This document shows, piece after piece, positions 10,130 through 55,707 of a stretch of 64,000 bases of DNA. The notes under the pieces are model-generated. The model saw nothing but the letters and a program-made list of their open reading frames with translations. It was not told the origin of the DNA and made no database searches. The stretch is from an alpha proteobacterium AAP38 (GTDB lineage: Bacteria; Pseudomonadota; Alphaproteobacteria; Azospirillales; Azospirillaceae). Position numbers and translations under genes: made by a program. Position 1 is the first letter of the stretch; each line of letters starts with the position of its first letter. Location of the stretch: contig LJHR01000037.1 of assembly GCA_001296005.1 (NCBI GenBank), positions 1 to 64,000 on the forward strand. Reading direction: 5' to 3'.

Positions 10130-10206
10130 GGAACCGGGCACCCCTAGGGATCAGTGTCGCCCGACCATTTCATCTGCAACGATTGTCGTCAATCACCAAG
10201 CTCGCT

Positions 10207-10311
10207 CCCTCACCGTCCCAAACGCTTGCGCGTTCAGGCCCCTCCCTCTCCCGCCTAGCGGGCGAGGGAAGAAGTTTCAGCCCCTCGCCCACGAAGGTGG
10301 GAGAGGGAGGG
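10207..10311. repeat. Dispersed repeat family A, copy 1 (right arm truncated)
   Basis: This copy shares GGCCCCTCCCTCTCCCGCC, CGGGCGAGGG, CCCCTCGCCCACGAAGGTGG and GAGAGGGAGGG with the copies at 19562 and 22190. It keeps the left side hairpin AACGC-TTGC-GCGTT and the main stem, but lacks the right side hairpin. It fills most of the 200 bases between the GH15 gene end and kynA. Confidence 0.85.
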
Positions 10312-10332
10312 AACCCCGCCCCCCCGCCACCC

Positions 10333-18430: not shown

Positions 18431-19402
18431 ATGACCGATGGTACCGCCCCTTTCCTGATCGCCGATATCGGCGGCACCAACGCCCGCTTCGCCCTGGTCG
18501 GGCCGGCCGGCGCCCCCTATAATGAACAGGTGCTGCGCTGCGCCGATTATCCCACCTTGCAGGATGCAGCCTTCACCTATCTGAAGATGCAGGATCTGGT
18601 GGGCAAGGTGCAGGTTGCCACCTTTGCCGTCGCCTCCCCCGTGACGGGCGACCTGATCCGCATGACCAATCTGGCCTGGGAATTCTCCATCAAGGCCGTG
18701 GCCCATGATCTGGGTCTGGCCCGCCTGGACCTGATCAACGACTTCACCGCCGTGGCACTGGGCATCCCGGAACTGAAGCCGGAAGATTACGTGCAGGTGG
18801 GTGAGGGCGATCCCATCGGCGGCGCCCCCATCGCGGTTCTGGGGCCGGGATCGGGCTTGGGCGTTTCCGCCCTGGTGCCTGACAGCGCTGGTCATTTCAC
18901 GGCGCTCGCGACAGAGGGCGGGCATGTCACCATGGCCCCCATCACCGACCGCGAAAGTGCCGTCCTGGGACAGTTGCGCAAGCAGTTCGAACATGTCTCC
19001 GCCGAACGCCTCGTCTGCGGCCCCGGCCTCGTGAACCTTTATGAGACGCTCTGCTTCCTGGACGGGGTGGAGCCTGAAAAGCTGACCGCCGCCGAAATCT
19101 CCGACCGGGCCGTGGGCAAGCGTGACGCGATTTGCGTGGAAGCGCTGGACATGTTCTGCGCCATGCTGGGGTCCGTGGCCGGCAACCTCGCCTTGTCACT
19201 CGGCTCTAGAGGCGGCGTCTTCATCGCCGGCGGCATCATCCCCCGCTTCATGGCATGGTTCCAGCACAGCCGCTTCCGCAAGCGCTTCGTGGAAAAGGGC
19301 CGCATGCGCGCCTTCCTCGGCCCCATCCCCACCTATGTCGTGACCCACCCCTACCCGGCCTTCTTGGGCCTCGCCGCCCATGTGCGGCGCGTGGGGCGGT
19401 AA
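18431..19402 (+). CDS. glk: Glucokinase (ROK-independent, Glk type)
   Basis: The 323-residue enzyme carries the phosphate-binding loop FLIADIGGTNARFAL at the N-terminus, LINDFTAVALGIP with the catalytic Asp (about residue 103), and VLGPGSGLGVSAL. It phosphorylates glucose to glucose 6-phosphate with ATP. It is the last gene of the lacI-glk unit and completes the route from external glucan through GH15 and the hexose transporter. Repeat elements of families B and A start directly behind its stop. Confidence 0.94.
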   Translation: MTDGTAPFLIADIGGTNARFALVGPAGAPYNEQVLRCADYPTLQDAAFTYLKMQDLVGKVQVATFAVASPVTGDLIRMTNLAWEFSIKAVAHDLGLARLDLINDFTAVALGIPELKPEDYVQVGEGDPIGGAPIAVLGPGSGLGVSALVPDSAGHFTALATEGGHVTMAPITDRESAVLGQLRKQFEHVSAERLVCGPGLVNLYETLCFLDGVEPEKLTAAEISDRAVGKRDAICVEALDMFCAMLGSVAGNLALSLGSRGGVFIAGGIIPRFMAWFQHSRFRKRFVEKGRMRAFLGPIPTYVVTHPYPAFLGLAAHVRRVGR

Positions 19403-19512
19403 CACCAACGGTCATAACGAATGACCGTTGGTGCGGCGGCGACCGCCGCCGCACGGCCCATGCCGCGTGAAGCCAAGCCAACGGATGTTGGCGCCGGCGC
19501 TTGAGGCGCTGA
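19403..19512. repeat. Dispersed repeat family B, copy 1
   Basis: It starts right after the glk stop with CACCAACGGTCAT-AACGA-ATGACCGTTGGTG (arms perfect over 13 bp). GCGGCGACCGCCGCCGC, TGCCGCGTGAAGCCAAG, the hairpin GCCAAC-GGAT-GTTGGC and GCCGGCGCTTGAGG follow. Relatives lie at 50411 and 53256. Confidence 0.85.
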
Positions 19513-19561
19513 ACATAACTGTGTGACGGGGGTGTGTGACGTCACACCCTCGACCGTTGAT

Positions 19562-19698
19562 CCCTCACCCTCCCAAACGCTACCGCGTTCGGGCCCCTCC
19601 CTCTCCCGCCAAGCGGGCGAGGGACTAAGTTTCGCCCCTCGCCCACGAAGGTGGGAGAGGGAGGGGCCCATTGACGCCAGTCAATGGGAGGGTGAGGG
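19562..19698. repeat. Dispersed repeat family A, copy 2 (complete)
   Basis: Outer arms CCCTCACCCTCCCA and TGGGAGGGTGAGGG pair over 14 bp. Inside are side hairpin AACGC-TACC-GCGTT, a 17-bp main stem GGGCCCCTCCCTCTCCC with GGGAGAGGGAGGGGCCC, and side hairpin CCCATTGAC-GCCA-GTCAATGGG. It folds as a cloverleaf-like form between two converging genes. Confidence 0.88.
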
Positions 19699-22189: not shown

Positions 22190-22293
22190 CCCTCACCCTC
22201 CCGTCAAGCGGGAAAGGGGCCAAACTTCACCCCTCGCCCACGAACGTGGGAGAGGGAGGGGCCCAAGCCTGCAAAGGCTTGGGAGGGTGAGGG
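22190..22293. repeat. Dispersed repeat family A, copy 3
   Basis: Outer arms CCCTCACCCTCCC and GGGAGGGTGAGGG are kept. The left side hairpin is missing. The right side hairpin is CCCAAGCCT-GCAA-AGGCTTGGG, quite unlike copy 2 in sequence but fully paired. It lies in the divergent region between the adaptor gene and hutG. Confidence 0.85.
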
Positions 22294-22346
22294 AACAACC
22301 GATCCCAAGGCAAAGATAACCCGCCCCGGAACAGGAGAACCCAACC

Positions 22347-27316: not shown

Positions 27317-27375
27317 TTAGAGTTTGTCGTGTGATTCACGCTTCAAATGTACCCATTTGAAGCGATCACACTCTA
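27317..27375. repeat. Dispersed repeat family C, copy 1
   Basis: On the minus strand it reads TAGAGT-GTGTGAT-CGCTTCAAATG with the matching arms CATTTGAAGCG, ATCACAC and ACTCTAA. The inner arms pair over 11 bp without mismatch. The terminal TAG is the stop codon of the PilZ gene. The partner copy is at 52966. Confidence 0.85.
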
Positions 27376-47093: not shown

Positions 47094-47150
47094 GCCTGCG
47101 TCTCCGCGACGGGCGCCAATTTCGACCCCGCGATGGCGGCCTGGGTGCAC
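47094..47150 (-). pseudogene. Remnant of a crbR-like 3' end
   Basis: Read on the minus strand this gives TQAAIAGSKLAPVAETQA, against TQAAIVASKLALAPVVETQA at the end of the regulator at 47628. The DNA matches over about 57 bases apart from a 6-base deletion and scattered changes. No HTH or receiver upstream is recognisable, so it is a truncated duplicate left about 540 bases from the intact gene. Confidence 0.65.
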
Positions 47151-47383
47151 TTGGCTTCCCCCGCAGGCGCTGCGCGTCGCGGTCGCTGCCGGAGTGGTTT
47201 CCGGTCAACCGAGAGCCATTCAAATTTTAACAGGCACAGGCCAACTGAAGCGCGCAACACAACGGGAATGATTAGTAGTATAAACTTATATATTTACATC
47301 CTTTAATAATTGACTCACTCTTTTGACGACATTAGCCTCCATCCACAATAACTTGACTCTGCGTCGTGGCTTCGGGGGAACAA

Positions 47384-50184: not shown

Positions 50185-50410
50185 GTGCCCTCCCTTTTGC
50201 GCATATCGGCGACAAACGGACCGGCCCCGGCGATATTATGCGCCGCCCGCCGGGCAGCCTGTTATGGGCGTCCGGGTCGATCCTTGAGGTTTCCACGATG
50301 GGACAGGCGGAAGGTTAACGCAGCCCCGACCTTGGTCGCTTCGACCTTGGTCCAGAAGCTTGAAACCATTAGCTAATTTGTGCAGCGCAACAAGCGGGGC
50401 GTTAACGGAT
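50185..50410. other. Promoter region of the MHS transporter gene
   Basis: No reading frame with coding character is present here. It holds the upstream region of the transporter and borders repeat B. No operator could be named. Confidence 0.4.
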
Positions 50411-50518
50411 AAGGCCAAGGGTCATCAATCGTGACCTTTGGCACGGCGGCGACCGCCGCCGCGCGGCACGTGCCGCGTGAAGCCAAGCCAACGGATGTTG
50501 GCGCCGGCGCCTGAGGAA
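50411..50518. repeat. Dispersed repeat family B, copy 2
   Basis: GCCAAGGGTCA-TCAATCG-TGACCTTTGGC (one G-T pair) replaces the left hairpin of copy 1. The GCGGCGACCGCCGCCGC core, GCCAAC-GGAT-GTTGGC and GCCGGCGCCTGAGG are kept. It lies 10 bases behind the GAF gene stop. Confidence 0.85.
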
Positions 50519-50527
50519 CAGAAAAAG

Positions 50528-52953: not shown

Positions 52954-52965
52954 GATACTCTCCTA

Positions 52966-53030
52966 TTAGAGTGTGATCGGTTTAAATGGATTCATTTAAA
53001 CCGTGAATCACACGACGGAACAAACTCTAA
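52966..53030. repeat. Dispersed repeat family C, copy 2
   Basis: TTAGAGT-GTGTGAT-CGGTTTAAATG pairs with CATTTAAACCG, ATCACAC and ACTCTAA, the same three helices as at 27317. Two base pairs of the inner stem differ from copy 1 and both are compensated. The right end supplies the TAG stop of ccoS. Confidence 0.85.
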
Positions 53031-53209
53031 CCACCCGTTTTCGGGTGGGGTGGGCTGGGCGGCAGGGGCCGCTCATCATCGAACAGGACGCGGGCACCGG
53101 CCCCGTCCAGGTCTTCGAACTGTCCGCTGCGCACGGACCACAGAAAGGCCAGAAGACCGATCAGGCCCATGCCCAGCGCGATGGGGATCAGGAACAGCAG
53201 GCTGGTCAT
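53027..53209 (-). CDS. ccoS: cbb3 oxidase assembly protein CcoS
   Basis: The 60-residue protein has one helix (LLFLIPIALGMGLIGLLAFL) followed by the CcoS pattern WSVRSGQFEDLDGAGARVLFD, split here around residue 30. It is needed for maturation of the cbb3 oxidase haem/copper centre. The ATG overlaps the fixI stop (ATGA). Its stop codon TAG is the end of repeat C, so the Pro-rich tail DERPLPPSPPHPKTGG may be partly a late extension. Confidence 0.88.
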   Translation of the reverse strand: MTSLLFLIPIALGMGLIGLLAFLWSVRSGQFEDLDGAGARVLFDDERPLPPSPPHPKTGG

Positions 53210-55707
53210 CCACGCATCTCCCTTGGTGCTGTTTTAGGCTGACCGGAAACAGTACCGGCGGCGACCGCCGCCGCGCGGCCCGTGCCGCGTCGCCCAAGCT
53301 GCGGATGCAGCGCCGGCGCTTGAGGAAAACGCAAAGGTGCCCCCGACAACCTCAGCGCATTGCCCAGCACCACCAGCGAGGAGGAGGACATGGCCAGTGC
53401 CGCGATCAGCGGTGTGGCATGGCCCAGCATGGCGATGGGCACCGCGCACAGGTTATAGAGCAGCGAGAAACCCAGGTTCTGCAGCACCAGCCGGTCGGCC
53501 TTGCGCGCCACCGTCAAAAGCTCTGCCAGCGGGGCCAGAAGGTCACCCTGGAACACGGCATCGGCGGCGGTCTGCGCCACATCCACGGCACTGCCGGGGG
53601 AGGCAGAGACATCCGCCGCCGACAGGGCCGCCGCATCGTTCAGCCCATCGCCGACCATCAGGACATGGCGGCCCTCATCCTTCATCGCGGCCAGCGCCGC
53701 TGCCTTGCCCGCCGGGTCCACGCCGGCCCGCCAGTCTGTAATGCCCAGGCGGGCCGCCATGGCGGCCACCACCGGTTCCCGGTCGCCGGAAATCAGGGCC
53801 AGCCGGTATCCCTTGCGGCGCAGGGTCGCCACCACGGTCACGGCATCGGCACGCGGCGCATCGGCAAAGGTGAAGCGCCGTGGCTGCCAGCCAGGACGCG
53901 CCAGCCACAGTTCCGGCCCCTCGATGATGCTCCCCGGCACGCTGACCGGCCCGACAAAGCCGCGCCGGCCCAGGCGCACCATACCGTCCGGCCCCTGCCA
54001 TTCCAGGCCGGCCCCCGGCACCTCCCGCACGCCGTCGGCCACCGGTCCCGGCCCTGCGGCCCGCGCGATGGCACGCGACAGCGGATGCCGGCTGGCCCGC
54101 GCCAGTGTGGCCGCCAGTTCCAGGTCCGCCGCATCGCGGTCCCCATCGGGCAGAAGGTCGGGCCGGCCCAGGGTCAGCGTGCCTGTCTTGTCAAAGACAA
54201 TGGTATCCACCTTGGCCAGCCGCTCCAGCGCCGTGGCCGATTTCAGCAGGATGCCGCCGCGCAGCAGCCGCCCCGTCGCCACCACCTGCACCGCCGGTAC
54301 CGCCAGCGCCAGGGCGCAGGGGCAGGTGATGATCAGCACCGCCACCGCGATGAACAGCCCCTGCTGCCAGGCAATCCCCACGCCCAGCACCCAGGCCAGG
54401 AAGGTCGCCAGGGCGGCGGTATGGACCACGGGCGTATAGGCCCGCGCCACCCGGTCGGCCAGCGCCACATAGCGCGCGCGGCCCTGTTCGGCGGCCTCCA
54501 TCAACCGCACGATCTCGGCCAGCAAGGTGCCCTCACCCCGCGCGGTCACCGTCACGCGCAGCGGGGCCGACAGGTTGACCATGCCGGCAAACAGCGTGTC
54601 GCCGGGCCGCACCGGCTGTGGATGGCTTTCCCCGGTGACCAGCGAGGTGTCGATATCCGACACCCCGTCCGCCACGGCCCCATCCACCCCGATCCGCTCC
54701 CCCACCGCGACCAGGACCATGGCCCCCACCGGCACCTGCGCCGGGGCCGTGGGCACGGCCATGCCCGCCTCGTTCAGCATCATCACGGGTGCCCGGCCCA
54801 GTGCCAGCAGATGTTCTGCTGCACTCCGCGCCCGGCCCCGCGCACGCGCATCCAGAAACCGCCCCACCAGCAGGAAGAACAGCAGCATGACGGCGCCATC
54901 GAAATAGGCATGTTCCCCATGCCGCGCCGTCTCCCACAGGCTGACCGTGGTCGCCAGCGTCACGCCCAGAGAGATTGGCACATCCATATTGGTTCGCCCG
55001 GCCTTCAGCGCAGTGATGGCCGACCGGAAGAAGGGCCGCGCCGCATAGGCCACGACCGGCACGGCGATCAGGGCCGACAGCCAATGCATCAGGGTGCGCG
55101 TGGCATCGCCCATGCTGCCGGCATGGCCGGACCAGACCGACACCGACAGCAGCATGATATTCATCATGCCGAACCCGGCCACCGCCATGGCCCGCACCAG
55201 TTCACGTTCGGATTTCTTCTGCGGATCATCCGCCCCTTCTGTGCCCGCCACGGCGGGGCGATAGCCCAACCGCCGCACGATGCCGGCCAGATGCCCCGCC
55301 ATGTCCGGCGCACCCTCCCGCCACGTCACGGACAAGCGCCGCGTCGTCAGGTTCACGCGCGCCGCCGTCACGCCCGCTTCCCGGCGCAACGCACTTTCAA
55401 TCAGCCAGACACAGGCCCCACAGGTCACCCCATCCACGACCAGCCGCAGACACTGCGCCCCGTCCGGTAGCGTCTCCACCGCGCCCGACAGGTCCAGCGC
55501 CGCCGCCTCTTCTCCTGCCGGGGCCGGGGCATTGGCGTCGCGGCGCGCGTAATAGGCATCCAGCCCCAGATCATGGATCAGGGCATAGGCACCCGCGCAA
55601 CCGGTACAGCAGAAACGCTCCCCCGCCGCCACCGGCTGCCCGCAATGGATGCAGCCTATGTCATGTGCGTGATCGGTCACGATTACGGGGGATGTGGCGC
55701 GGGTCAT
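53206..55707 (-). CDS. fixI: Cu+-exporting P1B-type ATPase FixI/CcoI with repeat-encoded tail
   Basis: The 833-residue pump has an N-terminal CIHC/CTGCAG cluster, a heavy-metal domain (DGVTCGACVWLIE), eight helices with the ion motif ITCPCALALAVP, phosphorylation loop VFDKTGTLTLG and hinge MVGDGLNDAAALSAADV. It supplies copper for the cbb3 oxidase. The natural end seems to be near VVLGNALRLSGAP. The following PQAPALHPQLGRRGTGRAAA plus VAAG is a translated copy of repeat B. The frame then reaches SGQPKTAPREMRG and overlaps ccoS by ATGA. It is coupled to fixH by ATGA at 55704. Confidence 0.93.
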   Translation of the reverse strand: MTRATSPVIVTDHAHDIGCIHCGQPVAAGERFCCTGCAGAYALIHDLGLDAYYARRDANAPAPAGEEAAALDLSGAVETLPDGAQCLRLVVDGVTCGACVWLIESALRREAGVTAARVNLTTRRLSVTWREGAPDMAGHLAGIVRRLGYRPAVAGTEGADDPQKKSERELVRAMAVAGFGMMNIMLLSVSVWSGHAGSMGDATRTLMHWLSALIAVPVVAYAARPFFRSAITALKAGRTNMDVPISLGVTLATTVSLWETARHGEHAYFDGAVMLLFFLLVGRFLDARARGRARSAAEHLLALGRAPVMMLNEAGMAVPTAPAQVPVGAMVLVAVGERIGVDGAVADGVSDIDTSLVTGESHPQPVRPGDTLFAGMVNLSAPLRVTVTARGEGTLLAEIVRLMEAAEQGRARYVALADRVARAYTPVVHTAALATFLAWVLGVGIAWQQGLFIAVAVLIITCPCALALAVPAVQVVATGRLLRGGILLKSATALERLAKVDTIVFDKTGTLTLGRPDLLPDGDRDAADLELAATLARASRHPLSRAIARAAGPGPVADGVREVPGAGLEWQGPDGMVRLGRRGFVGPVSVPGSIIEGPELWLARPGWQPRRFTFADAPRADAVTVVATLRRKGYRLALISGDREPVVAAMAARLGITDWRAGVDPAGKAAALAAMKDEGRHVLMVGDGLNDAAALSAADVSASPGSAVDVAQTAADAVFQGDLLAPLAELLTVARKADRLVLQNLGFSLLYNLCAVPIAMLGHATPLIAALAMSSSSLVVLGNALRLSGAPLRFPQAPALHPQLGRRGTGRAAAVAAGTVSGQPKTAPREMRG
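53256..53325. repeat. Dispersed repeat family B, copy 3, inside fixI
   Basis: It shares CGGCGGCGACCGCCGCCG, GTGCCGCGT and GCCGGCGCTTGAGG with copies 1 and 2. The inner hairpin is GCTGC-GGAT-GCAGC instead of GCCAAC-GGAT-GTTGGC: different arms, same loop. It lies wholly within the fixI reading frame. Confidence 0.85.

Follow-up and report, generated by a model that had tools for sequence, protein, structure and literature searches.

Probable gene-end insertion of a mobile REP-like repeat just short of the fixI stop codon in alpha proteobacterium AAP38

The fixI gene of alpha proteobacterium AAP38 (Azospirillaceae) has an unusual end: its reading frame continues beyond the usual end of the family and passes through a copy of a dispersed repeat, which raises the questions of how the repeat came to lie there and whether it is regularly translated. 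The gene was found in the first 64,000 nucleotides of contig LJHR01000037.1 (GenBank assembly GCA_001296005.1), the stretch analyzed here and referred to below as the window. The open reading frame (ORF) at 53206-55707 on the minus strand encodes 833 amino acids, including the extra tail, and matches TIGR01511 (469.4 bits, cut-off 397); the next ORF on the same strand (53027-53209), ccoS, shares ATGA with the fixI end and matches TIGR00847 (74.2 bits, cut-off 28.35), and ccoG (TIGR02745 match) is located upstream. Given the TIGR01511 match and these two neighbors, the long ORF was assigned to fixI/ccoI of the cbb3 oxidase assembly operon, the gene of a copper-translocating P-type ATPase. We consider it quite probable that a mobile element similar to repetitive extragenic palindromic (REP) sequences was inserted at the gene end and fell short of the fixI stop codon.

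A preliminary description, made from the sequence alone, had placed a dispersed repeat inside the fixI frame. This was borne out, as the frame runs through a copy matched by a covariance model of the repeat (R1) at 53223-53328 of the minus strand with 108.2 bits. The repeat does add residues in frame, but its extent had been underestimated as a 70-base core encoding about 24 residues: comparison of the junction with genome G006 and other orthologues revealed an insertion of 111 nt (37 codons) at 53225-53335, minus strand. Since GCACC is repeated at each edge, 53230-53340 is an equally valid placement. The matched segment is formed by three GC-rich hairpins and a terminal hairpin on the minus strand, read from the sequence and from covariation in the model alignment: GCTGC-ATCC-GCAGC, mid-way in a 3-bp outer stem (53298-53311; model helices 1 and 2), a hairpin with a CGCGGC stem (53274-53289; helix 3), one with a CGGCGGC stem (53256-53273; helix 4), and the terminal hairpin (53225-53255; helix 5), which is the most sequence-variable part among the copies and has both sides changed in 10 of its 12 pairs.

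The fixI/ccoS junction was compared across 19 loci, the codons being counted after FixI residue 780. In AAP38 the frame continues for 53 codons past this residue vs. 16 in G006, and at 13 of the 19 loci FixI stops after 15-20 codons; in accordance with the preliminary description, which took the tail for an insertion, no shared tail appeared in the aligned proteins. The remaining six loci are those of AAP38 itself, of G009 (49 codons, including an insert that reads as decayed, see below), of G005, where the contig ends before the stop, yet native-like sequence is already read beyond the insertion site, and of G021, G017, and G013 (48 codons each). In the last three genomes about 30 codons are open into ccoS in another frame; long C-terminal tails of FixI arise there without any repeat. 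After the AAP38 insert, 19 native bases with the fixI stop and the ccoS start are intact, and the ATGA overlap has survived, as had been noted initially. In a codon-aligned fixI tree of 16 sequences, AAP38 is joined by G005 (support 0.999) and then by G006 (1.000), whose fixI genes are 94 and 92.5% identical to it at the DNA level, respectively. As these closest orthologues lack the insert (G005 up to its contig end), the insertion in AAP38 was considered recent. The inserted copy is 92% identical to its best paralogue in the same genome.

These data are compatible with a scenario in which a mobile element of REP-like type, about 110 bp long and comprising four adjacent hairpins, would have entered fixI on the branch leading to this strain, 16-21 nt ahead of the gene's stop, at a junction that has no spacer because fixI and ccoS overlap by ATGA. 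The frame stays open since the insert has 111 nt, a multiple of three, and contains no stop in the frame used; the native last codons and the ccoS start would have been left in place. At the sequence level the gene encodes a FixI extended by 37 codons, and this long form is presumably produced. Purifying selection acts on FixI, with dN/dS of 0.082 against G005 and 0.074 against G006, and with 35 synonymous vs. 7 nonsynonymous codon changes on the AAP38 branch. The nearest named FixI records belong to Niveispirillum (97, 91, and 83% identity), which places the host in this genus. Long relatives of solved structure align no further than residues 787-792. In an AlphaFold2 model based on 28 sequences (mean pLDDT 72.4, pTM 0.56), the last predicted helix comprises residues 766-785, and residues 795-833 have pLDDT below 50, so that the extra tail is predicted to be disordered. 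Located after the last predicted helix and predicted to be disordered, the tail is probably neutral.

The element itself is about 110 bp long (mean 111 nt in 100 copies) and has four abutting hairpins. In 30 copies a conserved CCTCA is followed by one hairpin centered on ATCC, two of the CGCGGC and CGGCGGC types, respectively, and the variable terminal one; the first hairpin after CCTCA begins with GCC/GGC, its 3+5 pairs flank an internal loop, and some copies carry a further hairpin at the other side. Compensatory change was evident in 26 copies, where 14 of the 33 pairs were altered on both sides. Covarying cells numbered 50, compared with 11.9 in shuffles (none of 500 reached 50) and with 2-11 when the partners were shifted by 1-3 columns. 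The maintenance of the hairpins by compensatory changes suggests that the folded single strand matters; it would serve the spread of the element or act as RNA at gene ends.

The model search revealed at least 106 copies in the AAP38 genome at E ≤ 1e-5, a lower bound obtained by scoring 150 of 11,339 first-look candidates, the model E-values being rough; such a number greatly exceeds what chance would produce. Two further copies in the window, already pointed out in the preliminary description, proved to be real: one at 19400-19509 (minus strand, 92.7 bits), at the end of which a glucokinase gene (18431-19402, identified as an ORF matching glucokinase models) stops, and one at 50410-50519 (minus strand, 88.0 bits), which is shared with G006 at the orthologous site and has a coding-scored gene stopping at its edge. 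A degenerate fourth copy lies at 47128-47224 on the plus strand (37.7 bits, E 1.4e-6). In a survey of 59 genomes with stricter filters (66 candidates scored per genome, E ≤ 0.001), matches were found in 29: all 11 genomes of the genus, a set in which some records bear the names Oleisolibacter, Aerophototrophica, and Azospirillum, 15 of the 24 from the rest of the family, and 3 of the 24 from outside it. One genome from outside the family, G034, is an outlier with 22 model matches, which could reflect either spread between families or an unrelated repeat. An Rfam search of seven loci at E ≤ 1 yielded three matches, all under the gathering scores, one of which overlies an element (P5 in locus L006, 27.6 bits vs. 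gathering score 60). Among the papers listed for Azospirillum, Niveispirillum, and alphaproteobacterial repeats in an open-access library, none has a title about this element.

For 100 of the 106 copies (six without fetched flanks were left out), the surroundings were analyzed and compared with 2.0 Mb of G006. Orthologous G006 DNA was available for 50 copies: 16 sites are filled in both genomes, 29 were scored as empty in G006, and 5 are complex, fixI being one of the latter, with the G006 site empty by hand alignment. Three of the 29 empty sites keep remnants of the element (C62:56823 and the neighboring pair C32:23916 and C32:24007). These differences between filled and empty sites indicate that the family was still mobile after the divergence of the two genomes, through insertions or partly through losses.

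In 65 of the 100 copies the stop of a facing gene lies within about 10 nt of the element end (tolerance -8 to +8 nt on the left and -8 to +12 nt on the right), while the same applies to 4.4% of random intergenic bases in G006, or to 28% of gaps if one random point is taken per gap (10 nt being used for this null). By a second criterion, a coding-scored gene stopping at the element end, the count is 60; the genes were called with a custom codon score trained on 27 ORFs of the window. Stop codon and element edge overlap in many copies. The neighboring genes are tandem on the plus strand in 36 cases, convergent in 32, tandem on the minus strand in 20, divergent in 9, and assigned on a single side in 3. 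Almost all of the examined copies other than that in fixI lie immediately outside genes, mostly close beyond a stop codon and flanked by genes in tandem or convergent orientation. Among 26 empty sites with a G006 gap below 30 nt (three sites were dropped), 17 insertions fall within 15 nt of a facing stop, vs. 12.7 expected under uniform placement in the same gaps (simulated P 0.005). Eleven of these 26 gaps are at most 26 nt long, and two are 4-nt overlaps. At the AAP38 insertions C53:8773-8881 and C23:219038-219150, the G006 genes overlap by 4 nt, similarly to fixI and ccoS. The gene-end positions may be due to targeting or to survival.

A second insert at the end of fixI was found in G009, taken for N. 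lacus. By eye, its position is the same as in AAP38 within about one base, and it is open over 33 codons. Model R1 reported nothing at this insert at E ≤ 5, and its DNA is single-copy in G009 and was not found in the AAP38 genome or in G006. Local alignment with the element consensus is collinear over consensus positions 15-109 of 109 and scores 59, compared with 26.6 (standard deviation 4.7) for shuffles, none of 1000 reaching 59. An ordinary copy was rejected on the grounds that the insert has no R1 match, is single-copy, and is linked to the element solely by the collinear alignment as judged against shuffles. To judge from its sequence, it reads as an old, decayed copy. Two gains would cost fewer events than one gain followed by at least two precise losses.

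Could translation be a regular habit of this repeat? According to a review (PMC10969869), Rickettsia palindromic elements (RPEs) are palindromic repeats of 100-150 bp that occur in frame in housekeeping proteins, nearly half of them lying in ORFs. In the preliminary description, insertion at gene ends was likewise suggested to be easily tolerated. The element has in common with RPEs, as described in the review, a palindromic repeat read in frame within a housekeeping protein; moreover, fixI and the two intergenic copies of the window have an open sense frame, and the N. lacus insert is open as well. However, the frequent insertion into ORFs has no counterpart here. Clear coding-scored read-through was found in 1 of the 100 AAP38 copies (fixI alone) and in none of 49 G006 copies (out of 50 matches, one overlap on the opposite strand being left out), most copies lying outside stops. 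Under a laxer threshold, 11 more AAP38 frames enter a copy by more than 40 nt, with coding scores of 0.15-0.33 vs. 0.59 for fixI; these were taken for shadow frames. Sense frames were open in 202 of 300 cases vs. a shuffled mean of 204.9, and antisense frames in 74 of 300 vs. 143.1. Since composition alone yields it, the open sense frame of the intergenic copies carries little weight: the frame from PQAPAP to RAAAVAA is indeed open in both, as had been described, but shuffled sequences are equally open. At 4 of 4 loci examined in other genomes where the tail peptide had matched, a coding-scored gene occupies the opposite strand and ends at the element; scores of the sense frames range there from -0.41 to 0.10. 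It is therefore very unlikely that the repeat is adapted to being translated and regularly spreads by tolerated in-frame insertions into proteins, of which fixI would be just one. The fixI extension looks like a rare mishap, probably harmless, and not like a standard source of new protein parts.

Other explanations concern fixI itself. The hairpins could act in the mRNA of the fixI-ccoS junction, lowering or coupling translation, with the tail as a side effect; copies near gene ends and the conserved folding are consistent with such a function, and E. coli REPs located at most 15 nt from a stop lower translation, as stated in passages of PMC12306157. However, the fixI copy lies before the stop, within the translated frame, where ribosomes would be expected to unfold the hairpins, and element sites differ among closely related genomes, which makes this role rather unlikely. 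An ancient origin of the tail as part of FixI, with the other copies representing gene ends in decay, is hardly credible: the look-alike in N. lacus agrees with it, and FixI of G021, G017, and G013 also reaches 48 codons past residue 780, but via ccoS in another frame; most compared proteins and the closest orthologues lack the tail, an intact glucokinase gene has its stop ahead of the 19.4-kb copy, and a coding-scored gene ends at the copy at 50.4 kb. Misplacement of a repeat copy at the fixI end by assembly or sequencing might be suspected, as the element is multi-copy in a draft assembly of 62 contigs. Such an artefact is highly improbable, given that a contig break would suggest something far longer than this insert, which has native sequence on both flanks and is not identical to its best paralogue (92%).

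Insertion of a mobile REP-like element at the gene end has to be weighed against several observations. The N. lacus look-alike at about the same place allows one old insertion followed by precise losses, and the tree node placing G009 has support of just 0.222. No consistent target-site duplication was detected in the 100 AAP38 copies; at least five bases are shared by both edges in 46 of them, vs. 34.7 in permutations (maximum 46, reached by 2 of 200). GCACC flanking the fixI insert was tried as a 5-bp target duplication and dropped, since such edge repeats are nearly as common when left and right edges are permuted. A candidate mobiliser was not found either: the tyrosine transposase family PF01797 (RAYT) is represented in 0 of 10 other genomes of the genus, and AAP38 has one weak match (24.5 bits, cut-off 23). 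RAYT was rejected as the current mobiliser in these 10 genomes, all of which hold the element. By the criterion that gave 60 of 100 AAP38 copies, just 25 of the 49 G006 copies have a gene stop at an end, and proximity to stops is partly forced by the tiny gaps. A more far-reaching proposal, which we put forward only tentatively and regard as doubtful, is that the repeat represents a distinct class of mobile structured elements with four contiguous compensated hairpins, no detectable tyrosine transposase, and no fixed target duplication, whose insertion is directed to a few nucleotides around stops even at junctions almost without spacers; FixI would then have received an insertion that missed the stop by a few codons where two genes overlap, and fixI-ccoS would be a repeated target, with two insertions in the genus.

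Among the known systems, REP elements abutting gene ends are a better comparison than RPEs. In passages of Di Nocera et al. (2013; PMC3733652), REPs of the GTAG and CGTC super-families are dispersed palindromes found for the most part on the downstream side of genes, in the gaps separating tandem or convergent ORFs; their ends may supply stop codons, and a minority lie inside ORFs, some of these C-terminally. The CGTC REPs are described there as common in alphaproteobacteria and having no dedicated transposase. The present element resembles both super-families in gene-end placement, stop-supplying ends, and rare C-terminal copies in ORFs, but comprises about 110 bp and four contiguous hairpins, whereas the REP described in the same source has one hairpin of 20-40 bp. 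The CGTC stem of 8-9 bp opening with A-T pairs, with a loop of 4-5 (PMC3733652), was not recognized here. As to the CGTC tag (variants TGTC and CCTC), CGTC or GACG occurs in 36 of the 100 AAP38 copies, and CCTCA is invariant near one end in 28 aligned copies; a distant link to CGTC REPs via this conserved CCTC may exist. GTAG or CTAC was found anywhere in 24 of the 100 copies, with no conserved column of this kind in the 28-copy alignment, and the RAYT of GTAG REPs is, as noted above, absent from the other genomes of the genus and weakly matched in AAP38. REPs are defined in passages of PMC12306157 as usually extragenic, palindromic, multi-copy, and relatively short (14-40 nt in E. coli). The element, with its gene-end positions, covarying hairpins, and at least 106 copies, agrees with all of these features except shortness, its mean length being 111 nt.

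A precedent for the captured tail comes from RU-1 (ERIC), which extends the amidase ECA3499 at the C-terminus beyond the conserved domain (Delihas, 2007; PMC2759123). Judging by the passages of that source, in both cases a small mobile palindromic repeat was captured as the C-terminal tail of an enzyme; RU-1 is, however, a different, enterobacterial element, and the normal stop was apparently lost there, while fixI keeps its native last codons and the overlap. In Bradyrhizobium, Br-REP1 and Br-REP2 are repeats of 3' untranslated regions (3'-UTRs), Br-REP1 occurring in overlapping 3'-UTRs of convergent genes (PMC5082802). They are likewise alphaproteobacterial gene-end repeats, compared here by description, and the passages concerned mention no translated copy. 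Miniature inverted-repeat transposable elements (MITEs) of the DDE type have a target-site duplication of fixed length, a feature that this element lacks.

The fixI locus provides a recent case in which a dispersed non-coding repeat joined a conserved membrane protein with the overlap with the next gene intact and with close orthologues lacking the insert, and the rarity of translation for this repeat family can now be expressed in numbers. The family is abundant and recently mobile, and if its insertion is truly directed to gene ends, it would be a good system for studying the way in which repeats become markers of 3' gene ends in bacteria.

Other repeats were also observed in the window. Another palindromic family (CCCTCACCCTCCC...) occurs at 10206-10315, 19561-19680, and 22190-22299; the query copy gave 81 matches in the AAP38 genome (100 candidates, 40 scored), many of them representing both strands of one palindromic place. 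A palindrome located just downstream of ccoS (52955-53025) has an inverted copy at 27326-27375 and gave five matches in the same genome, two of which are the same place on both strands.

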